From Verrucomicrobiaceae bacterium (GTDB lineage: Bacteria; Verrucomicrobiota; Verrucomicrobiae; Verrucomicrobiales; Akkermansiaceae), in assembly GCA_947372405.1 (NCBI GenBank), contig CANBTO010000158.1, forward strand, positions 1 to 9,520: a stretch of DNA of 9,520 bases, read 5' to 3'. Numbering within the stretch: position 1 is the stretch's first letter; every line of letters begins with the position of its first letter. The notes beneath the pieces were generated by a model. That model was not told where the DNA came from. It searched no databases and worked only from the letters and a program-made list of their open reading frames with translations. Below are positions 434 through 8,903 of the stretch, one piece after another. The translations under genes were made by a program, and so were the position numbers.

Positions 434-2230
434 TCAGGGAGTCCGTTCATAGGCAGCCTGCCGGGCGGTGATGTCGTGGATTTTCCTCACGTCGAACTTC
501 GGCTTGCGGTCGTAATAGAAGAGCCCGTTCTTTTCCTGCTCGATGTCGGTCAACTGGGTATAACAGAAACCGAAGAGGTGCGCATTGTCGAGCATGGCGT
601 CGATGGTGCCCTGGTAGCGAACATATAACTCGTCGAGGTTCTTGGGACCTTTGCCATATCCCCAGCCACCCTCGGTGGCCCAGCCGATGCCGCCGATTTC
701 GCTGACCATGAAGGGCAGACCCCGATCGGAATCCGCCATCTTGTCAGCATCTCGAAGATCCCTGGAAATGGATAGATTTTTCATCCAGCGTTCGCGCAGA
801 GCGACTGGATTGGCTTGATAATCATGGGCGTCGAGGACCTCAGGGTTGGGCAGCGTGTGGATCCAGCCGCTGGTTTCGAGTGCGGGGCGCGTGGGGTCCA
901 CCGCCTTGGTGACGTTCCAGACGAGTTGTTGCAGCTCGGCGCAGGCCTTGTCGTTGGTTTCGTTGAATGGGCACCAACCGATGACGGCGGGGTGGTTGCG
1001 GTCACGCATGAGGATTTCGGTCCATTCGTTCACGTAGGCCGAGTAGCCCTTGGGGTTGAGGTTGTAGCCCCAGTTCGGATACTCGCCCCAGACGAGATAG
1101 CCGAGTTTGTCCGCCCAGTAGAGGAACCTCGGTTCGAAGACTTTCTGGTGGAGGCGCGCGCCGTTGTAGCCGCAGGCCATGGACATTTCGATGTCATGTT
1201 TGAGCGCCTCGTCGGAGGGAGCAGTCCACAGGCCCTCAGGATAAAACCCCTGGTCAAGGATCAGGCGCTGGAAGACGGGCTTGCCGTTGATGAGGATGCG
1301 GCGGCCGTCGATCACCACCTTGCGCAATCCGAAATAGCTGCCCAGCTCGTCCAGCGTGTTTCCGCCGCTGGAGAGAGTGAGCTTCAGGTCATAGAGGAAA
1401 GGCGCGCCCGGCTCCCAGAGTTTCTTGTCCTTGAGGTTGAGCACGAGGGTGATCTGCCATGGTCCGGTGCCGCTGTCCGATCCCGTCAGTTTGCCGTCGG
1501 CGAAGGCCTCCGCCTTGAGTGTTAGATCCTTGTCATGGCCGTTGATCTTCGCGGTGACAAGCACCCGCGAGTTGTCCGGATCAGGCACCACGGATAGATT
1601 CTCGACGAATGACGAGCCGACGGCTTCCAGCCACACCGTCTGCCAGATGCCTGTGGTGCGGGTATAACTGCAGCCACCGCTTTGATCCGGCGATTGCTTG
1701 CCGCACGGCTGGAGCCCGCTCCACATGTCATCGAGCACCTTGACGACCACTTCGTTGGGTCCGGCTTTAAGCCACTTGGTGACGTCGAAATCAAACGCGG
1801 CATTCTCCCCGATGTGGGTTCCTGCGAGCTGGCCGTTGATATAGACCGAGGATTTGTAATCCACCCCGCCGAAATGCATTCTAACACGCTTGCCCTGCAT
1901 CGTGGGCGGCAGATCGAAAAGGCGGCGGTACCAGACGTTCTTCAGGCGCTGGGTATTACCCAGTCCGAGACCCGAGAGCTTGCTCTCGGGACAGAACGGG
2001 ACAGTGATTTTTGCATTGAGATCGTTGCCACCGGTCAGCACGCGCGCTTCGCCGTCGGCGGCCTTGTCGATCTCGAACTGCCACTCGCCGTTAAGAGACA
2101 TCCAGTTTTCCCGGCAAAGGTCCGGCCGGGGATGTTCCGGCCGGGGGACTGCCTCGGAAGCGCTGAGAACCCCTGTGATCAGCAGAGCAGACGTTGCGGC
2201 CATCACGGCCAGGTTTCGATTTTTGTTCAT
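434..2230 (-). CDS. Secreted glycoside hydrolase family 2 protein (beta-galactosidase/beta-glucuronidase-like)
   Basis: The protein has 598 residues from the ATG at 2230; an in-frame GTG three codons upstream (2239) would give 601. The N-terminus is a typical Sec signal peptide, with basic MNKNR then a hydrophobic stretch ending near SASEA. Next comes the GH2 jelly-roll domain: LNGEWQFEID, a VWYRRLF strand, and FGGVDYKSSVYINGQLAG. A beta-sandwich follows, then the TIM barrel with the family pattern GARLHQKVFEPRFLYWADKLGYLVWGE. The proposed acid/base is Glu424 in CPFNETND and the nucleophile is Glu511 in FMVSEIGG. Their spacing of 87 residues is normal for GH2. It should be an active retaining glycosidase, periplasmic or outside the cell, but the sugar specificity (galactoside, glucuronide, mannoside or other) cannot be read by eye. 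At about 600 residues it is compact, with no extra C-terminal modules. There is no GGAGG before the start; CAAAAG lies 11 to 16 bases upstream of the ATG. It is divergent from the oxidase-like operon. Confidence 0.92.
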   Translation of the reverse strand: MNKNRNLAVMAATSALLITGVLSASEAVPRPEHPRPDLCRENWMSLNGEWQFEIDKAADGEARVLTGGNDLNAKITVPFCPESKLSGLGLGNTQRLKNVWYRRLFDLPPTMQGKRVRMHFGGVDYKSSVYINGQLAGTHIGENAAFDFDVTKWLKAGPNEVVVKVLDDMWSGLQPCGKQSPDQSGGCSYTRTTGIWQTVWLEAVGSSFVENLSVVPDPDNSRVLVTAKINGHDKDLTLKAEAFADGKLTGSDSGTGPWQITLVLNLKDKKLWEPGAPFLYDLKLTLSSGGNTLDELGSYFGLRKVVIDGRRILINGKPVFQRLILDQGFYPEGLWTAPSDEALKHDIEMSMACGYNGARLHQKVFEPRFLYWADKLGYLVWGEYPNWGYNLNPKGYSAYVNEWTEILMRDRNHPAVIGWCPFNETNDKACAELQQLVWNVTKAVDPTRPALETSGWIHTLPNPEVLDAHDYQANPVALRERWMKNLSISRDLRDADKMADSDRGLPFMVSEIGGIGWATEGGWGYGKGPKNLDELYVRYQGTIDAMLDNAHLFGFCYTQLTDIEQEKNGLFYYDRKPKFDVRKIHDITARQAAYERTP

Positions 2231-2441
2231 GGTTTTCACTTTTGAATGAGCGGCGGCATGGCTGGTCCGTTCCGCCTTGGAGGGATTGTAACGGTGGGCG
2301 GACTTTCAACAGGCGGACGGAAGATTTTCTTTCACAACACCCCATCCTCTTTTGCCAGGTGAGGTGTCACCATGCAAGGAAGACTCACAGGTTCGATGGC
2401 GCTGGTTGACAGCAGGGGGAACGGTCCTAGCATCCGGACAG
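2231..2441. other. Divergent intergenic region between the GH2 gene and the oxidase-like operon
   Basis: These 211 bases must hold the promoters for both directions. They contain a TACAAT on the minus strand (2285-2290) and, on the plus strand, a textbook GAGG (2361-2364) placed 7 bases before ATG 2372. That ATG is not in the frame of the oxidase-like gene. The same spot has a small dyad, GGTG at 2358-2361 with CACC at 2368-2371. I see no clear FNR-type or other well-known operator. Confidence 0.4.
2285..2290 (-). promoter_or_regulatory. Candidate -10 element for the GH2 gene
   Basis: The minus strand reads TACAAT here, one mismatch from TATAAT, about 55 bases before the GH2 ATG. A TTGAAA lies 13 bases further upstream, which is too close for an ideal -35 box, so a sigma-70 assignment is weak. 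The position between two divergent genes is right for a promoter. Confidence 0.25.
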
Positions 2442-3680
2442 ATGTGCGAAGTGGCCAAGCCGCCAGATCAATCCGGACTCTCCTCGGCGGTGAGGCATTC
2501 GCTGGGATGGCTGGTATTCGGCAACTGCGTGGGTTTGTATCTATCAGTCCTGCTGTTGTTTCCCTCGTTGCAACTCGCTCAATGGACTTATGGCCGCTGG
2601 GTGCCGGTGCATTTGAACGTGCAGCTTTACGGATGGACCTCGCTGCCGCTGGTGGCGTGGCTTTTGTCGATCTACGAGGTGGACCGCAGCAAGCACTCCG
2701 CATGGGGACCGGCGGCGGTGTGGGCGTGGACGGCCGCGCTGGTGATCGGCGTGACCCGCTGGCTTGGCGGAGTGACTTCCGGCAAGATCTTCCTCGACTG
2801 GAAGGGCGGCGCGCTGTGGGCGTTGGTCGCCGCGCTCATGGTGCTCTGGTGCGTGCTCGCGCTGGCGTGGCGGGACCGCTCGCAATCCTGGAGCAAGCAG
2901 CGGAAACTCGCCGCGCTGTTAGGTTTGTCAGGACTGCTGCTGGTGCCCGCCTCGCTGGTGTTCGCCTCCTCGCCCGCCGTTTATCCGCCCATCGACCGCA
3001 CGACCGGCGGACCGACGGGCTCCAGCCTGCAGGGCTCGGCGCTGGTGGTGGTGGGGCTCATGCTGATGCTGCCGCGCGTGGCCGCAACCGCGAAACGGGA
3101 CGCGAAGTCCAAGGGGATCTGGATTTTCTTCGGCCTTTCATGGCTCGTTTTCGGCGTGGCGGAGGCGATGGGAGGCACGCACCACGATGCGCATCAGATC
3201 GGCTCGATGCTTTTCCTTCTGCCATGGGTGTGGTGGCTGCCGAAGGACTGGGCGGAATTCATCTGGCCTCCCGGTTCGCGGGTTTGGCGTGGCGCGATGT
3301 TCGCGTGGTGGGGATTGCTGGTGGTGAGCGCGCTGCTGATGTATCAAACCGGTGTGCTGGACCGCATCAAGTTCACGCAGGCTCTGGTGGCGCACTCGCA
3401 TCTGGCGATGGCGGGCTTCACCACCTCCTTCTGCGCCCTGCTGCTGGTGCTTCTAACAAACAAGCGCATGGGCGGGGCGCTCACGGTTTCACTGTGGCAT
3501 CTGGCGGCGTTTGTGATGATCGTGACGCTGGCGCTGATGGGCTGGCGGGAGGGCGGGGATTTCTCATGGATGGCGGCGCGGCCATGGTGGCGCGAATGCG
3601 GGCTCGTCGTGCGCGCGGCGTGCGGACTTGTGATGACGGGTGTATCAGTGATGTGGCTTTACGAACGGAGGACAACATGA
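2442..3680 (+). CDS. Divergent heme-copper-oxidase (cbb3-like) subunit I, 12 transmembrane helices
   Basis: From the ATG at 2442 the protein has 412 residues and about 12 hydrophobic helices, the number in heme-copper oxidase subunit I, but it is shorter than typical CcoN. Helix 2 holds VPVHLNVQLYGW; His57 fits the low-spin heme b ligand. At the helix 7/8 junction GGTHHDAH gives His247, His248 and His251, where two CuB histidines usually sit. Helix 10 has ALVAHSHLAMAGF; His318 and His320 fit the high-spin and low-spin heme ligands. Helix 6 (near SSLQGSALVVVG) has no His, so the usual third CuB ligand seems absent. The downstream CcoO/CcoP-like cytochromes support a cbb3-type relation. It is probably a membrane oxidase or reductase core, or an electron-transfer paralogue without classical activity. 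The start is uncertain: in-frame TTG 2352 would add 30 polar residues, and ATG 2442 lacks a good Shine-Dalgarno sequence. The stop overlaps the next start (ATGA). Confidence 0.75.
   Translation: MCEVAKPPDQSGLSSAVRHSLGWLVFGNCVGLYLSVLLLFPSLQLAQWTYGRWVPVHLNVQLYGWTSLPLVAWLLSIYEVDRSKHSAWGPAAVWAWTAALVIGVTRWLGGVTSGKIFLDWKGGALWALVAALMVLWCVLALAWRDRSQSWSKQRKLAALLGLSGLLLVPASLVFASSPAVYPPIDRTTGGPTGSSLQGSALVVVGLMLMLPRVAATAKRDAKSKGIWIFFGLSWLVFGVAEAMGGTHHDAHQIGSMLFLLPWVWWLPKDWAEFIWPPGSRVWRGAMFAWWGLLVVSALLMYQTGVLDRIKFTQALVAHSHLAMAGFTTSFCALLLVLLTNKRMGGALTVSLWHLAAFVMIVTLALMGWREGGDFSWMAARPWWRECGLVVRAACGLVMTGVSVMWLYERRTT
3667..3671 (+). promoter_or_regulatory. Strong ribosome binding site for the four-TM protein
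   Basis: GGAGG sits 5 bases before the ATG at 3677, inside the end of the upstream gene. It fixes the start of the small membrane protein and supports translational coupling. Confidence 0.75.
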
Positions 3681-4078
3681 ATCGGACGAAATTCCTGAAA
3701 CTGTGGAGTGTGGCGATGGGCTCGATGGACGCACTTACCGGGCTGCTGCTGGTGTTCGCGCCGGAGCTCGTGCTTCGCATGCTGCGAATTGATCCGCCTG
3801 CACCGGAAGTGATGGTCTTCATCAGCTGGATCGGGGTTTTCGTGATGGCCGTGGGGCTGAGCTATGGCTTCGCACTGGGCATAAGACGCAGCCGTGGAGA
3901 AACCGCGTGGATGTTCACCTCGCTGGTGCGTCTGATGGTGGCGGCGTTTCTAACATTCCATGTCCTCGACGAGTCGCTGGCCCGGCCGTGGGCGCTGGTC
4001 GCGCTGTCCGATGGCGCGGTGGCGGCGGTGCAGATCGCGATCCTGCGGAAGGGATGGTGGAGGGAGGTGCCGCGGTGA
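3677..4078 (+). CDS. Small four-helix membrane protein of the oxidase-like operon
   Basis: The protein has 133 residues and begins MNRTKFLKLW. It has about four hydrophobic helices, roughly residues 10-32 (including ALTGLLLVFAPEL), 43-66 (VMVFISWIGVFVMAVGL), 75-97 and 105-124, and ends in a basic tail. There are no CxxCH, His-pair or other cofactor motifs, so I do not see a redox centre. I do not recognise the family. The start overlaps the stop of the subunit-I gene by 4 bp (ATGA), and its own stop overlaps the next start by 4 bp (GTGA). Synthesis is therefore probably coupled with both neighbours, and the protein may be an accessory or structural subunit, or an assembly factor, of the same membrane complex. 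That role rests on context only. Confidence 0.8.
   Translation: MNRTKFLKLWSVAMGSMDALTGLLLVFAPELVLRMLRIDPPAPEVMVFISWIGVFVMAVGLSYGFALGIRRSRGETAWMFTSLVRLMVAAFLTFHVLDESLARPWALVALSDGAVAAVQIAILRKGWWREVPR
4063..4067 (+). promoter_or_regulatory. Ribosome binding site deciding the GTG start at 4075
   Basis: GGAGG lies 7 bases before GTG 4075, with a second GGAGG at 4059-4063. Together with the GTGA overlap this selects the GTG over an in-frame upstream ATG at 3907, which would overlap the four-TM gene by 172 bases. Confidence 0.7.
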
Positions 4079-5871
4079 AGTTCGTGGTGGCACGCGCGGC
4101 GCTGGTGGTGGCGGCGATTTACGGCTTCTTCCTGATCTTCGCGCAGTTCTCGTTCATCGAGCTGATCCGAGCCGGAGGAGCCGGCCCGGAATCCGAGCGC
4201 GCGGTGCTGGGAGCCATGGCGGTGGCGGGAATCGCCGCTGGGTTTCTGACAGCATGGCGCGGGGCCTCACCGCGCGCGTTGCGCATCGCACTGGGAGTTG
4301 CGGCGTTTGCGTCGACGCTGGCACCTTACGCCAGCCGGATGCCGGGAGCGTTTGCCGTGGCGGCGGTGACGGGCGGGGCGCTGGGAGTCGCCACGGTCGG
4401 GCTTTCCGCGCTGCTGCCCGCATGGTGCGGGTTGTTCTGGGTGGGACTGGGCACGGGGCTGGGTTATGCGTGCTGCAATCTTCCAGTGGTTTTCCAACAA
4501 TCGCCCGCCGTGCAGGCATGGATCGGCGCGGGCTTCGCGATCACCGGCATGATCTCCGTGCCACGGGCGGCGGAATGGCACATGGAGAAACCATCGCCCG
4601 TGTTCCCGTTCTGGAGCGCGGTGGCTTTGTTCACCGCGTTGGTCTGGATGGATTCGGCGGCGTTTTTCATCATCCAGCATTCCGCCGATCTCAAGTCCGG
4701 CACCTGGGGTGAGGGCTTGTTGTGGAGAAACGCGACGGTGCATCTCCTATTCGCCTGCGTGGCGGGAGCGTGGCTGGCAAGGCGTGGTGCGCGCGTTTTG
4801 CCGGGCATCGCGTGGGTGCTGCTGGCGGTGGCGGCGCTGGCGGTGAACGGGGACTCCACACGCTGGCTTGCAGGTTGGTTTTATCCGGCCGGGGTTTCGT
4901 TGTATTCCGCCGCTCTGGTGGCGTGGCCGTGCTGGTTCTCCGGAGCGGATGGTTCGCGTCCCGCAGCATGGCGCGCAGCATGGCTCTTCGCCATCGCGGG
5001 GTGGTTCGGCTCCGCGAACGGGATCGGCATGGCGCAGACGCTGCAGCATGTGCCGCCGGTGTTCGTCGCGGGCGCGGGTGCGGTGGTGCTGGGCGTGATG
5101 TTTCTATCAGACCGCAGGCACTGGCGGCCGGCGCTGGCGGTGACCGGTGTGGCAGCGGTGTCCATGGGCACACGTGAAAACCAGCCAACCTCACCCGCCG
5201 CCATGGAGCGCGGACGGCGGGTCTATCTATCAGAAGGCTGCATCCACTGCCATTCGCAGTATGTGCGGCCGGACTCGCCCGACGTGGAACCCTGGGGCCC
5301 CGCCAGCCGTGCGGAAACCGTGATGAAAGGCGAGCCAGTTCTGATCGGAAACCGCAGGCAGGGACCGGACCTGACAAACGCAGGCGCGCGCAGATCCGAA
5401 ACCTGGCTCAAAGTGCATTTCCTCGATCCACGCGCTCTCTCGCCGGACAGCCCGATGCCGTCCTACGCGCATCTTTTCGAGGATGGCCGGGGCGACGATC
5501 TCGTCCGCTATCTCAAGGACTCCGGAGTCGGCGGAACGGCGGACATGATGGCGAGATCGACACAATGGAAACCTGCAGGAAACCCGGACAAGCAGGACGG
5601 AGGAATGCTTTTCCGGACGCACTGCGCGGCTTGCCACGGCGCGCTTGGCGGGGGCAACGGCCCGTTGGCATGGCATTTCACGAGACATCCCGCCAACCTG
5701 TTAGACGGACCGTTCATCTGGACCGCCGAGGGTGATGGACTGGATCTCCGGCTTTCCCGCGCAATCAAGTTCGGCATTCCCGGAACCGACATGCCGGGGC
5801 ACGAGACGCTCGCGGACGCGGACATCGTGGCACTGACGGATTACATCAAGAGTCTCAGACGCAGGCGCTGA
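4075..5871 (+). CDS. Fusion of a ~12-TM (MFS-like) membrane domain with CcoO-like and CcoP-like cytochrome c domains
   Basis: The protein has 598 residues from GTG 4075. Residues 1 to about 350 hold some 12 hydrophobic helices. The helix 2-3 loop (GFLTAWRGASPRALRIALG) and helices 4-5 (LPAWCGLFWVGLGTGLGYA) resemble a major-facilitator fold by eye only. Residues ~370-490 are a CcoO-like cytochrome c: YLSEGCIHCHSQYVRP contains the heme motif C389-x-x-C392-H393, followed by GPDLTNAGARRSETWLKVHF and probable axial ligand Met461 in SPMPSYAHLF. Residues ~505-598 are a CcoP-like domain with C517-x-x-C520-H521 (HCAACHG) and probable Met573 in GTDMPGHE. CcoO normally has one anchor helix; replacing it with a 12-helix domain and joining a CcoP-like domain in the same chain is unusual. 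It probably delivers electrons to the subunit-I-like protein on the periplasmic side. The end overlaps the convergent kinase gene by 17 bp. Confidence 0.85.
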   Translation: MKFVVARAALVVAAIYGFFLIFAQFSFIELIRAGGAGPESERAVLGAMAVAGIAAGFLTAWRGASPRALRIALGVAAFASTLAPYASRMPGAFAVAAVTGGALGVATVGLSALLPAWCGLFWVGLGTGLGYACCNLPVVFQQSPAVQAWIGAGFAITGMISVPRAAEWHMEKPSPVFPFWSAVALFTALVWMDSAAFFIIQHSADLKSGTWGEGLLWRNATVHLLFACVAGAWLARRGARVLPGIAWVLLAVAALAVNGDSTRWLAGWFYPAGVSLYSAALVAWPCWFSGADGSRPAAWRAAWLFAIAGWFGSANGIGMAQTLQHVPPVFVAGAGAVVLGVMFLSDRRHWRPALAVTGVAAVSMGTRENQPTSPAAMERGRRVYLSEGCIHCHSQYVRPDSPDVEPWGPASRAETVMKGEPVLIGNRRQGPDLTNAGARRSETWLKVHFLDPRALSPDSPMPSYAHLFEDGRGDDLVRYLKDSGVGGTADMMARSTQWKPAGNPDKQDGGMLFRTHCAACHGALGGGNGPLAWHFTRHPANLLDGPFIWTAEGDGLDLRLSRAIKFGIPGTDMPGHETLADADIVALTDYIKSLRRRR

Positions 5872-5872
5872 G
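5854..5872. terminator. Short inverted repeat spanning the two convergent stop codons
   Basis: CTCAG at 5854-5858 and CTGAG at 5868-5872 form a 5-bp stem with a 9-base loop. It covers the TGA of the cytochrome fusion (5869-5871) and the TGA of the kinase on the other strand (5857-5855). There is no T-tract, so its value as a bidirectional terminator is uncertain, but the position is suggestive. Confidence 0.2.
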
Positions 5873-6985
5873 GTGCAGGTTCCTCGCCACGATCTCCTCG
5901 AGCACCGCCATGTTTTCCTCGATGGTCTTGACGAAAGCGAACTGGTTGCGACAGCGGTCGAGATTGTGATCCGGGCGGTGGATCTTGAAATACACGTCAC
6001 CGTTGAGATGGTCCGTTAGAAAGCGGATACCGCATTCCAGAGTCAGCAGCTTGCCGGAGAATGCGAGGTTGTCGCGCTCGGCCTCGTTGAGGAAGGTGGC
6101 GGACGCGAGATAGCCCTGCACCAGCGCCTCGAAGCGGTCGAAACGGATGCCGATATTGGACGGATCCGGATCGTCCTCGCGGGAACTGGGGGCGGCGGTG
6201 CGCACCATGTCCCCGAAGTCATAGAGCGCGGAGCCGGGCATGGTGGTGTCCAAGTCGATCACGCAGACGCCCTCTGCGGTGACATCGTCGAGCAGAACAT
6301 TGTTGAGCTTGGTGTCGTTGTGGGTGACGCGCTCGGGGATCTCCCCGCTTGCGATCAGGTCGGTGATGCGGGCGCAGTCCAAGGCTCGGGCGCGGGCGAA
6401 CGCGATCTCCCTCGCCACATCCTTCGCGCGACCGGCCACGTCCGCAGCTACGGCGGCTTCCAAGGCTTCGAGGCGTTTGGGAGTGTTGTGAAAATCCGGA
6501 ATGGTCTCGTGGAGTCGCGGACCTCCGAGCGTTGCCGCGAGTTTCTGGAACTCGCCGAAGGTGCGTGCCGCCTGATAGGCCTGCTCGTTGGTTTCCAGCA
6601 CGTCGTAGCCGCGGGCACGCTCGATGAAAGGATAGACGCGCCAGAGGTTGCCGTCCGCATCGAACGCGTAGGGCCTGCCATCCAGTGAGGGGATGCAGGT
6701 GAGCGTGCGCCGTCGGGACTCCGGATGACCTTCGGCAAGCAATGTTGCAAGGGCGTGCCTGGTCACCCGTTCGACGTTCTCCATCAACTCGACGGGCTGT
6801 TTGAAGACATGATGGTTCACCCGCTGGACGACGTAGCGAATCGTCAGTCCCGCCTGATCGAAGCAGGTGCAGTATGTGTCGTTGATGTGACCGGAGCCAT
6901 ATGGCTGCGCGCTGACGAAATCAGCCCGCATGTCGAAAAGGGCGGTGATCCCACGGATATCGGGTTGCGACGATTTGGATGGCAT
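5855..6985 (-). CDS. Phosphotransferase-family sugar kinase, N-acetylhexosamine 1-kinase (NahK)-like
   Basis: The protein has 376 residues, close to the usual NahK length of about 360, and an aminoglycoside-phosphotransferase/choline-kinase fold. The N-terminal lobe has a glycine-rich nucleotide loop, YGSGHINDTY (residues 29-38), then YVVQRVNHHVFKQP as in NahK-type enzymes. The catalytic loop is THNDTKLNNVLLD with Asp224 as likely base and Asn229 downstream. The metal-binding segment is VIDLDTTMPG with Asp244/Asp246. The expected reaction is ATP-dependent phosphorylation of a free hexosamine such as GlcNAc or GalNAc at the anomeric carbon in the cytoplasm; the exact sugar is inferred from family resemblance. 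It lies 27 bases behind the nucleotidyltransferase and is probably co-transcribed and functionally paired with it. There is no Shine-Dalgarno before ATG 6985; Met19 (6931) is an alternative, but upstream coupling makes 6985 acceptable. Its 3' end overlaps the cytochrome gene. Confidence 0.85.
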   Translation of the reverse strand: MPSKSSQPDIRGITALFDMRADFVSAQPYGSGHINDTYCTCFDQAGLTIRYVVQRVNHHVFKQPVELMENVERVTRHALATLLAEGHPESRRRTLTCIPSLDGRPYAFDADGNLWRVYPFIERARGYDVLETNEQAYQAARTFGEFQKLAATLGGPRLHETIPDFHNTPKRLEALEAAVAADVAGRAKDVAREIAFARARALDCARITDLIASGEIPERVTHNDTKLNNVLLDDVTAEGVCVIDLDTTMPGSALYDFGDMVRTAAPSSREDDPDPSNIGIRFDRFEALVQGYLASATFLNEAERDNLAFSGKLLTLECGIRFLTDHLNGDVYFKIHRPDHNLDRCRNQFAFVKTIEENMAVLEEIVARNLHLSACV

Positions 6986-7012: not shown

Positions 7013-7921
7013 TCAGGAGAGCTTCTCAGGATAGGCGCCAGAGGTGATCAGCTTGCTTATGGACTCGACCACATAGGGTTTGTCTTCCGGATAAGTGACT
7101 CCAAACCACTGGCTGGTGGTCCGCAGCACAAGGCATCTTGCATAGCCACCATGAATGAGCTGGTCCACCACAGTGGGAATGTAGCACTCCGACTTCATCT
7201 GCTCGCCGGATTCACGCATGAAACGGGTGAACGCCTCCTCCAGCTGTATGAAGAAGTCCGGACCAAAGGCCCAGAAGTTCATCGAGACCAGCGAGCCAGC
7301 GGGCACGACGTGACGTTTTCCGTCCAGCGCGTTGCCATAGACATAACCGTCATCATCGCGACCGATGTTGAGGTATTCCTCAACGTTGGTGAGAAAGCCT
7401 TTCTCATCGATCTTGCAGATGCCACGGTTGACATGTCCGTGGTCGGAGAGGGTGTTTTCGAGAGGATAGCCTACCATTGCGGTCTCGTTGGAAGTTCCCA
7501 ACGGCAGGCTGTCGAAAAACTTGGCGGCGCGCAGGTATGCGTCCTCGCCATAAAAATCGTCCGCATTGATCACTGCGAAGTGCCCCGTCACCACGTGACG
7601 GGCGGCACGAACGGCGTGGGCGGTGCCCCATGGCTTGGTCCGGCCTTCCGGCACGGAGAACCCGGCGGGAAGGTCTTCAAGCTTCTGAAACACGTAGTCC
7701 ACATCGATCAGGCCCGCGAAACGGGAACCCACTCCTTGTTTGAAGGCCTCTGCGAAATCCTCGCGGATGATGAACACGACCCTGCCGAAGCCGGCGCGAA
7801 TGGCGTCGAAGACGGAGTAATCCAAGACGGTTTCACCATTCGGTCCCATCGGGTCCATTTGTTTCAGGCCGCCGTATCGGCTGCCCATTCCGGCTGCGAG
7901 AACGAGGAGAGTAGGTTTCAT
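7013..7921 (-). CDS. Sugar-1-phosphate nucleotidyltransferase (NTP_transferase family)
   Basis: The protein has 302 residues. The N-terminal signature LAAGMGSRYGGLKQ (residues 8-21) is the nucleotide-binding loop of sugar nucleotidyltransferases. Further on, KPWGTAHAV (97-104) and VINADDFYG with Asp121/Asp122 supply the substrate and Mg2+ sites. It should join a sugar 1-phosphate to UTP or another NTP, giving an NDP-sugar and pyrophosphate in the cytoplasm. Next to a NahK-like kinase the likely route is free hexosamine to hexosamine 1-phosphate to UDP-hexosamine, but base and sugar specificity are inferred. The frame stays open to 8044, yet the family signature begins at Met 7921 and the upstream extension is unlike any nucleotidyltransferase N-terminus, so 7921 is chosen. 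AAGAG about 12 bases upstream is a modest ribosome binding site. The leader is rich in inverted repeats (see 7943-8002). Confidence 0.87.
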   Translation of the reverse strand: MKPTLLVLAAGMGSRYGGLKQMDPMGPNGETVLDYSVFDAIRAGFGRVVFIIREDFAEAFKQGVGSRFAGLIDVDYVFQKLEDLPAGFSVPEGRTKPWGTAHAVRAARHVVTGHFAVINADDFYGEDAYLRAAKFFDSLPLGTSNETAMVGYPLENTLSDHGHVNRGICKIDEKGFLTNVEEYLNIGRDDDGYVYGNALDGKRHVVPAGSLVSMNFWAFGPDFFIQLEEAFTRFMRESGEQMKSECYIPTVVDQLIHGGYARCLVLRTTSQWFGVTYPEDKPYVVESISKLITSGAYPEKLS

Positions 7922-7942
7922 AAATCGGGTGCTCTTGAAAAG

Positions 7943-7965
7943 CCGGGATCTTGGGGACCTCCCGG
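7943..7965 (-). promoter_or_regulatory. Inverted repeat in the leader of the nucleotidyltransferase gene
   Basis: CCGGGA at 7943-7948 and TCCCGG at 7960-7965 form a perfect 6-bp GC-rich stem with an 11-base loop, ending about 22 bases before the start codon. It could be an mRNA hairpin limiting or regulating translation, an operator, or part of an attenuator. There is no U-tract, so it is not a classical terminator. Confidence 0.35.
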
Positions 7966-7977
7966 AAGGGGTAAGAC

Positions 7978-8002
7978 TTGCCAAAGCAGGACTGTCTGGC
8001 AA
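7978..8002 (-). repeat. Second inverted repeat in the same leader
   Basis: TTGCCA at 7978-7983 and TGGCAA at 7997-8002 form a perfect 6-bp stem around a 13-base loop. It could be a protein-binding dyad or a stem of the leader RNA. It lies between the end of the GH128-like gene and the nucleotidyltransferase start. Confidence 0.3.
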
Positions 8003-8081
8003 CCCCTGATATTCCTGCCCATCCAGCACCGGAATTCTGTCCACGCGCAGGACGTGGCATCCAAAGGTGCCATCACCTCGA

Positions 8082-8903
8082 TCAGACGGACTGATAGTAT
8101 TTTCCGAGTTCTGTCAGGCCGCCGCTTTTGTCGAAGAGGGCGGAGGTGCCGAGGGGGGCGCTGTTAGAAGAGGCGGAAAACCACGCGTAACGCTCCACAA
8201 ACGGGCTTTTCTCCAGACGCGGAAGCACCTGTTGCATGAACTTGAGGACCATGGCGGGCTTGTGGTGGTTCTGCTCCACGGATTTCGCCTGCCAGTCTCC
8301 ACAGGCGAACTCGGTGATCCACAGCGGGCGGTGGTACATCCTGTGGATGCTCTCCAACTGGTTCATGAATGCGTTGGCATCGGTCCCGCCGTAGGAGTGC
8401 ATGCAGATGAAATCGACGCGCAGTTTGCGCTCGTCCACACCCTTCATGAACTCCTTCATCCACGGGCTGTCCGGGTGGACGCAGCCGGGTGATCCGAGGC
8501 GCAGGCCGGTCTTCATCATCTCCGGCCATACATCGAGGACTTTTTTGACACTCAGGTTGGATTGTTTGATTTGATCCGGTTCATTGAAGCCGAGCAGTTC
8601 ATGGATGCCGGCGGCCTTGGCGGCCTCACCCGTTTTGGCGATACCCGAATTGTTGCCCCAGTAACCCCATACCATCGGAATGAAATCGATTGATTTCGGA
8701 ACATCGGCGGGTTTGCTGGAACCCCAGGTATAGAACCAATCGAGATCGAGCTTGTTGACCCGATCCAACCAGTTTCCACCGGGTTTGGCCACAATGCCGA
8801 TGCCTTTCTTGCGGGTGGAGCGGGAGTTCGAGGCGGCGTTCGCCGTCAATGCGGATGCGAACGGAGCGGCGGCGGCAAGCTTGAGGAAATGGCGGCGGTT
8901 CAT
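8082..8903 (-). CDS. Tat-exported glycoside hydrolase, GH128-like (glycosyl hydrolase catalytic core family)
   Basis: The protein has 273 residues. The N-terminus MNRRHFLKLAAAAPFASALT is a Tat-like leader: twin Arg3-Arg4 followed by HFLK, a hydrophobic core, and probable cleavage after ANA near residue 23. The mature part is a small TIM barrel of the glycosyl hydrolase catalytic core type: FYTWGSSKP, FIPMVWGYWG, LLGFNEPD with Glu108 as likely acid/base, VDFICMHSYGG, and LWITEFACGDW with Glu198 as likely nucleophile. Proteins of this family (GH128) cleave beta-1,3-glucans, so a laminarin- or fungal-glucan-type substrate is plausible but not shown by the sequence. The length is normal for a single catalytic domain without binding modules. 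Weak AAAAG precedes the ATG. It follows the right-edge gene by 41 bases and precedes the nucleotidyltransferase by 160 bases, all on the minus strand. Folding before export fits the Tat leader. Confidence 0.88.
   Translation of the reverse strand: MNRRHFLKLAAAAPFASALTANAASNSRSTRKKGIGIVAKPGGNWLDRVNKLDLDWFYTWGSSKPADVPKSIDFIPMVWGYWGNNSGIAKTGEAAKAAGIHELLGFNEPDQIKQSNLSVKKVLDVWPEMMKTGLRLGSPGCVHPDSPWMKEFMKGVDERKLRVDFICMHSYGGTDANAFMNQLESIHRMYHRPLWITEFACGDWQAKSVEQNHHKPAMVLKFMQQVLPRLEKSPFVERYAWFSASSNSAPLGTSALFDKSGGLTELGKYYQSV

Follow-up and report, generated by a model that had tools for sequence, protein, structure and literature searches.

A three-gene locus of Verrucomicrobiota and Acidobacteriota with a cbb3-related fold, a missing copper ligand and a possible link to isoprenoid lipids

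The cbb3 oxidases, which form the C family of haem-copper oxidases and whose genes serve as a predictor of microaerobic life, have a catalytic subunit (CcoN) with a 12-helix haem-copper fold. In this subunit, a low-spin haem is held by one histidine in helix II and one at the third residue of the helix X HxH motif, three histidines bind the copper CuB, and helix VII carries an active-site tyrosine. CcoO is the mono-haem partner. In the nitric oxide reductases (NORs; cNOR and qNOR), the FeB ligands are a histidine and a glutamate in helix VI and two histidines in helix VII. Outside the haem-copper oxidases, YceI lipocalins are described with bound ubiquinone-8 or octaprenyl compounds (PMC9113575). 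The same paper describes protection against lipid peroxidation by the Burkholderia YceI protein BcnA together with the membrane cytochrome b561 LcoA, for which electron transfer to bound ubiquinone is proposed. The locus described here consists of three overlapping genes (the trio) in a 9,520-nucleotide stretch from a Verrucomicrobiaceae bacterium (contig CANBTO010000158.1, assembly GCA_947372405.1), hereafter the window. A first-pass annotation had described the trio as a cbb3-like operon of unusual architecture.

The three open reading frames (ORFs) are present where they were first placed, with stop/start overlaps of ATGA between genes 1 and 2 and GTGA between genes 2 and 3 (Table 1). The trio shares with cbb3 CcoNO a CcoN-like fold in gene 1 and a CcoO-like domain in gene 3. 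It differs in the loss of the helix VI CuB histidine and the helix VII tyrosine, in carrying only a partial CcoO domain, which sits on an MFS domain, in an additional small subunit, and in an isoprenoid operon that accompanies it in relatives. There is good support for setting the trio apart from canonical cbb3 oxidases. It may instead be a membrane redox complex related to the cbb3/NOR haem-copper oxidases, in which the CuB site is broken and through which c-type cytochromes would exchange electrons with a redox-active isoprenoid lipid; this reading falls slightly short of an even chance.

Table 1. Coordinates of the trio, its candidate ligand sites and other features. Positions are those of the window unless a locus is named.
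Feature	Position	Strand	Remarks
Gene 1, CcoN-like membrane subunit, predicted haem-copper fold without helix VI copper His	2442..3680	+	ATG start; 412 aa
His57 codon, helix II, low-spin haem ligand position	2610..2612	+	His in 81/81 rows; aligns with CcoN motif LHTN
Glu241 codon, CcoN helix VII Tyr position if counted six back from HH ungapped	3162..3164	+	120/120 close homologues
His247-His248 codons, VII/VIII junction	3180..3185	+	H247 in 80/81 rows, H248 in 43/81
His318-Ser-His320 codons, helix X, high-spin and low-spin haem ligand positions	3393..3401	+	H318 in 81/81 rows, H320 in 46/81
Gene 2, small membrane protein outside known families	3677..4078	+	ATG start; 133 aa
Gene 3, MFS-fold domain (1-346), CcoO-like haem c domain (372-470), second cytochrome c (508-594)	4075..5871	+	GTG start; 598 aa
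First haem c site CIHCH, residues 389-393, axial Met461	5239..5253	+	71/72 rows, remaining row gapped
Second haem c site CAACH, residues 517-521, axial Met573	5623..5637	+	at least 71/72 rows, remaining row gapped
Family 2 glycoside hydrolase (GH2) gene	434-2239	-	
APH-type phosphotransferase, nucleotidyltransferase and glycosyl hydrolase genes	5855-6985, 7013-8044, 8082-8903	-	
Joined gene 1/gene 3 open frame	L024:7983-11384		
Joined gene 1/gene 3 open frame	L025:3628-7017		
Joined gene 1/gene 3 open frame	L026:7983-11387		
Joined gene 1/gene 3 open frame	L028:5080-7716		
Joined gene 1/gene 3 open frame	L029:7983-11405		

The proteins of genes 1 and 3 were modelled with AlphaFold2 as two single chains, run separately and without cofactors. 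In the gene 1 model there are 12 long helices, the eighth split in two, in agreement with the 12 transmembrane (TM) helices first counted. The predicted model has the 12-helix haem-copper fold of the cbb3 catalytic subunit, with CcoN nearest, and is consistent with the earlier placement in the haem-copper family. The chain is shorter than solved CcoN chains (412 versus 463-475 residues). Gene 1 scores 22.4 bits against Pfam COX1 (PF00115), below the 34.8 cut-off; 16 of 36 family members match PF00115 at E<=0.01 (best E 3.7e-9). The NCBIfam models, ccoN included, give no match to gene 1, and a single-sequence search with it finds no solved relative. A profile of 36 family rows finds the CcoN chain of the P. 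aeruginosa supercomplex (E 2e-4), and a local hhalign alignment covers helices I-IV at 85% probability.

Family comparisons use 81 gene 1 rows (80 genome loci and the window), 78 gene 2 rows and 72 gene 3 rows. The histidines of gene 1 lie at positions 19, 57 (helix II), 85, 247/248 and 251 (VII/VIII junction), 318/320 (helix X) and 353, and the first-pass placing of histidines in helices 2 and 10 and at the 7/8 junction is correct. H57 aligns with the haem histidine of CcoN helix II and H318-x-H320 with the helix X pair. The bis-histidine positions of a low-spin haem would therefore be held by H57 and H320 in the window, and gene 1 presumably binds haem. The assignment of residues to cofactors follows the known structures. 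Three other residues (K115, D119 and K310) are each present in 81/81 rows.

The helix VI copper ligand is missing. Gene 1 of the window has no histidine between residues 86 and 246, and the helix VI region (189-212) has none in 80 of the 81 rows, L059 being the exception. A full-length HMMER alignment, weak at 14.1 bits, sets the CcoN helix VI motif YGHNAVG against tGasllg. A global hhalign alignment (67% probability) shifts the motif by three residues, again without a histidine. The loss is independent of alignment register because the entire stretch has no histidine. Helix VII (224-246) of the window copy has no tyrosine, whichever alignment is used, and any tyrosine in 236-246 occurs in just five of the 81 rows (L037, L042 and L058, which are one clade, L067 and L078). 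Glu241 takes the tyrosine position by ungapped counting; hhalign places gaps around it and pairs the CcoN tyrosine with Val239 instead. Of the three CuB histidines of cbb3, one lies in helix VI and two at the end of helix VII; in the window the first is absent and the other two positions are occupied by His-His. With the helix VI histidine and the helix VII tyrosine both lost, gene 1 should not, on its sequence, be filed as a cbb3 oxidase. The complex may have no copper. The wording preferred here is that it misses a copper ligand, not that it is copper-less, in view of the two junction histidines in the window.

In the gene 3 model, the chain ahead of residue 346 forms 12 long helices and both haem domains follow, matching the 12-TM domain and two CxxCH cytochromes first noted. 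A CcoO-like domain and a second cytochrome c domain are thus merged into one chain behind a polytopic domain, as had been proposed. The polytopic domain is present as claimed, and it is now assigned to the 12-helix MFS fold. The FixO match to the CcoO-like domain scores 96.1 bits (cut-off 29.6) and covers profile positions 46-143 of 219 only; all of the 42 family members scanned have it. The second cytochrome c scores 57 bits, with both Cytochrom_C and Cytochrome_CBB3 matching (506-594). A search of solved sequences with gene 3 ranks CcoO subunits closest (9g6b_B, E 9e-20).

In five loci, genes 1 and 3 form a single open frame with gene 2 nested in another frame (Table 1). All five have lost the gene 1 stop codon. 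The joined frame supports a physical association of the two products. Selected dual coding was considered for the long frame and rejected: synonymous gene 2 shuffles leave the frame open in 61-90% (five genomes). The shuffles mostly keep it open, so that at this GC content an open frame by itself is likely by chance, and only the lost stop codon is notable. A 1149-aa open frame at gene 1 in G257 (L113) may be the same arrangement.

Gene 2 is small and hydrophobic, with a hydropathy compatible with about four helices, which agrees with the earlier description as a four-TM protein. Seven residues are invariant in its 78 rows (D18, T21, G22, P29, R85, W105 and D112). No Pfam family matches gene 2 above cut-off and none is common to 29 family members. 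Its best sub-threshold match is cytochrome c oxidase subunit IV (PF12270; E 0.052, 14.1 bits versus a 26.9 cut-off), and none of the other family members (29 scanned) matches PF12270 at E<=0.01. That this protein stands in for one or more cbb3 subunits remains a suggestion, with the PF12270 match as its sole hint.

In relatives, the trio lies in a conserved operon whose other genes are outside the window and hence were not visible to the first-pass annotation. Partners were counted by direct searches on the trio strand. The count covers the 73 loci, out of 80, whose sequence extends 3.5 kb or more upstream, the query genomes (L009 and L073) included. These counts supersede a clustering of neighbour ORFs (single linkage), which mixed families and took in some antisense ORFs. 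A MacB/LolC-like permease and a LolD-like ATPase of an ATP-binding cassette (ABC) transporter each occur in 71 of the 73 loci (within 3.5 kb upstream in 70), and a polyprenyl diphosphate synthase occurs in 69 (65 within 3.5 kb upstream). Synthase and permease are found together in 69. A YceI lipocalin is present in 62 of the 73, its nearest copy upstream in 35 and downstream in 27, and does not adjoin the trio in the window. The YceI count comes from two queries; of the 50 loci in its component, the Terriglobus roseus YceI by itself matches 25 (26 rows when the reference is counted). Among the 73, L001 and L003 are without synthase and permease and L004 and L078 are without synthase.

Both Asp-rich motifs of the synthase, and Ala95-Ser96 located five and four residues ahead of the first Asp, are kept in at least 93% of 64 rows. 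By the chain-length rules for such synthases, this suggests products of C20 or longer. In T. roseus, the run L073:5140-12152 is tightly packed in the order synthase, permease, ATPase, gene 1, gene 2, gene 3 and YceI, and Pfam searches with the T. roseus genes confirm these identities. Beside this run lie a divergent small gene with sub-threshold PepSY/b561-like matches and genes for a response regulator and a histidine kinase. Such kinase and regulator genes often adjoin the trio operon in Acidobacteriota loci. A protein of about 160 aa adjoins YceI on the opposite strand in L046 (3955-4437, minus strand). It has no Pfam or NCBIfam match, and members of its cluster occur in 21 loci.

The trio is conserved and unusual, and chance is far from explaining it. 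Gene 1 homologues at E<=1e-3 number 752 among 8000 scored candidates; 121 genome stretches encode a gene 1 relative, and the best 80 were kept as loci. Among these 80, gene 1 is present in 80, gene 2 in 77 and gene 3 in 74. The misses are at contig ends, except for L065, in which no gene 2 is found, and L078, in which no gene 3 is found. An even draw of genomes, with centre genomes included (G005 in the 288, G001 in the 297) and up to six candidates scored per genome, gives gene 1 in 16 of 288 for Verrucomicrobiota and in 5 of 297 for Acidobacteriota. With the same limit of six candidates and a permease threshold of E<=1e-60, the permease is found in 14 of the 288 Verrucomicrobiota genomes, 13 of which are among the 16 with the trio, and in two of the 297 Acidobacteriota genomes, both with the trio. 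In the other three Acidobacteriota trio genomes the synthase adjoins the trio, in two of them YceI does too, and the short upstream stretch has no ABC genes.

The trio of the window stands alone, like that of its relative L001, and the set of operon partners is not beside it. Seven close-relative genomes (L001-L005, L008 and L015) all have the permease and the synthase, including those of L001 and L003, although none of the set is beside their trio. These permeases are 82-87% identical to that of L009 and the synthases 65-77%, one of them in two pieces.

Because relatives place it in a conserved isoprenoid operon, the trio is probably a lipid-linked electron-transfer machine and not an enzyme of oxygen respiration. 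The grounds are the fold, the loss of the helix VI copper ligand, the haem c motifs, the operon of the relatives, and the retention of the partners in genomes where the trio is alone; the lipid role would follow from gene neighbourhoods. Gene 1 would carry b-type haem or haems and gene 3 two c-type haems on an MFS-fold anchor, and the complex would not reduce oxygen in the canonical way. The polyprenyl diphosphate synthase of the operon would supply the tail of the lipid; once pulled out of the inner membrane by the LolCD/MacB-like transporter, the lipid would be ferried through the periplasm by the YceI lipocalin. The three chains presumably assemble with one another, and a lipid substrate and a direction of electron flow are likewise presumed. 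Of the three options first offered (terminal oxidase, NOR relative or electron-transfer module), the last is nearest. The absence of the helix VI copper histidine and the helix VII tyrosine from gene 1 makes a divergent terminal oxidase unlikely.

The locus would resemble LcoA/BcnA in the genetic linkage of a membrane haem protein to an isoprenoid-binding YceI lipocalin, and electron exchange with an isoprenoid handled by YceI is proposed by analogy with that system. Unlike LcoA, the membrane partner is not a cytochrome b561; it has a haem-copper fold with c-type haems, and a polyprenyl synthase and an ABC transporter are added. With LolCDE-LolA the operon shares a LolD-like ATPase and a LolC/E-like permease beside a periplasmic lipid-binding protein. 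It differs in its single permease gene, in YceI in place of LolA, in its linkage to a redox complex and in scores below cut-off (T. roseus ATPase versus TIGR02211, 208.6 bits, cut-off 307.75; permease versus TIGR02212, 89.2 bits, cut-off 362.45). Open-access literature searches met no description of the trio operon, which does not prove its absence, and the whole system is undescribed as far as these searches go. It is conceivable, with somewhat lower confidence than for the redox complex itself, that Verrucomicrobiota and Acidobacteriota have here an envelope system so far unrecognised, in which a haem b/c electron conduit of haem-copper fold, its copper site broken, serves a dedicated isoprenoid redox lipid with its own synthase, Lol-like export and YceI shuttle.

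Several observations weigh against an isoprenoid-linked complex with a broken copper site. Both junction histidines (247 and 248) are retained in the window copy, and a remnant metal site is therefore possible, judged from sequence. The neighbours in the window are sugar-metabolism genes, the partners are known from relatives only, and YceI and polyprenyl synthases are common families. Locus L078 has neither gene 3 nor synthase. At E<=1e-60, G044, G175 and G187 have the trio without the permease and G161 has the permease without the trio. Loci L123-L125 have the synthase, the sequence available upstream of their trio (up to 1.5 kb) shows no ABC genes, and their genomes have no permease at the same threshold. 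The loss of H320 in an Acidobacteriaceae clade means that haem content must differ there. Evidence for the substrate is indirect.

A lipid-modifying enzyme would share the operon evidence. The haem of gene 1 would oxidise or oxygenate an exported isoprenoid (an envelope lipid or pigment), the c haems would move electrons, and the ABC transporter and YceI would handle the product. If the copper site is incomplete, the haem face could accommodate a substrate, and a polyprenyl synthase inside the operon hints at a biosynthetic pathway. This is unlikely, at perhaps one chance in a handful: no other equally conserved lipid-tailoring enzyme is recognised among the 22 largest neighbour clusters, and the loss of H320 in one clade would impede electron delivery.

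That clade emerges in the gene 1 tree (95 rows, 91 distinct; bootstrap not fully settled). It contains 37 rows with 100/100 support, in which H320 is lost and Glu198 gained. These are 35 loci (34 Acidobacteriota and one metagenome-assembled genome, MAG, labelled Rhodanobacteraceae) and the G001 and G464 rows, which repeat L073 and L066. The MAG (L071) groups beside T. roseus, by transfer or mis-binning. In this Acidobacteriaceae clade, Leu or Phe replaces H320, the presumed low-spin haem ligand. On the tree, E198 is explained by a single change, which falls on the branch that loses H320 (support 100/100). Across the 81 rows, H320 is missing in 35, Glu198 is present in 35, the window not among them, and 42 of the 46 rows that retain H320 have an acid at 241. 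The remaining 58 tree rows have an acid at 241 in 49 and neither acid in nine. A strict exchange of E198 for E241 is rejected on these nine of 95 rows and is a trend only. Haem content and active site probably differ between the two clades.

These carboxylates bear on a second alternative, a reductase of O2 or NO with a rebuilt metal site, in which H247 (with H248 where present) and E241 in the clade of the window, or E198 in the Acidobacteriaceae, would bind Fe, Cu or another metal. It is slightly less probable than a lipid-modifying enzyme, since H248 is histidine in just over half of the rows, neither carboxylate is present in the nine rows above, and the operon is lipid-related. An NOR is rejected for the window, where the helix VI histidine and glutamate are both missing; Glu198 occurs in the Acidobacteriaceae clade.

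In the complete T. roseus genome (L073, G001), COX1 matches occur at two places only, each more than 200 kb from the trio. FixO matches at one place (5,041,597-5,041,971), within trio gene 3; L073 spans 5,030,758-5,047,972. This strain, DSM 18391, is KBS 63. For KBS 63, Trojan et al. 2021 (PMC8407424) report a "cbb3 oxidase" with low expression at every O2 concentration tested, and surprise that its expression went undetected at micro- and nanomolar O2; the Acidobacterium capsulatum "cbb3 operon" is described there in the same words. Eichorst et al. 2018 (PMC5900883) give T. roseus two type A oxidases and one type C oxidase and propose such strains as microaerobes. Since T. roseus has no other FixO and its COX1 matches are distant, the published cbb3 operon is, by exclusion, the trio. 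Its low transcription is neutral for a rebuilt-site reductase because it is low at every O2 level tested. Other COX1 genes are present in all six named trio genomes, and the trio is therefore not their only possible oxidase.

A third alternative is a copper or haem delivery or assembly factor for another oxidase, the MFS domain acting like the copper importer CcoA, an MFS protein. Gene 3 residues M319 and H223 are present in 72/72 rows, in keeping with such a role, and CcoA serves the CuB of cbb3 (PMC5829832). It is improbable, as T. roseus has no cbb3 to serve (no other FixO, and COX1 only as two type A-like genes) and the isoprenoid operon would be left unexplained.

The T. roseus genome has no match to CcoG or CcoS. 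This is a weak test for cbb3, as genomes with cbb3-like genes miss them too: both are missing in Acidipila (G003), which has a COX1-FixO frame, and CcoS is also missed in Haloferula (ccoN over cut-off) and Luteolibacter (CcoN motifs). A further divergent COX1 gene occurs in Haloferula (G005:C36:13162-14830; L097, L147) and Luteolibacter (G006:C50:38041-40038; L096). These frames, of 501 and 559 aa, lie just ahead of another COX1 gene, and a weak FixO-like match separates the two.

A divergent but otherwise ordinary cbb3 oxidase, the identity given in the JGI names, PMC8407424 and PMC5900883, is the least probable alternative: the CcoN-like fold, the genuine CcoO-like domain, and the helix II, helix X and junction histidines of the window favour it, and the missing helix VI histidine and helix VII tyrosine, the sub-cut-off PF00115 score, the lack of NCBIfam matches and, weakly, the missing CcoG and CcoS speak against it, the loss of ligands being the ground on which a canonical cbb3 oxidase is rejected. 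No well-characterised oxidase family that includes the trio came up in these searches; the family is only annotated as an oxidase, in the JGI names and two papers. Databases and, by exclusion, these two Acidobacteria papers count the trio as a cbb3 oxidase. If it is instead a lipid-chemistry complex without a working copper site, microaerobe inferences for T. roseus-type strains need revision, and the haem-copper fold gains a role beyond gas reduction with a testable lipid partner.

In the window, the trio is flanked by the GH2 gene and the phosphotransferase gene, and no connection is seen between the neighbour genes and the trio. The phosphotransferase adjoins the nucleotidyltransferase, and the two may be a sugar activation pair. 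The glycosyl hydrolase has a weak TAT-signal match.

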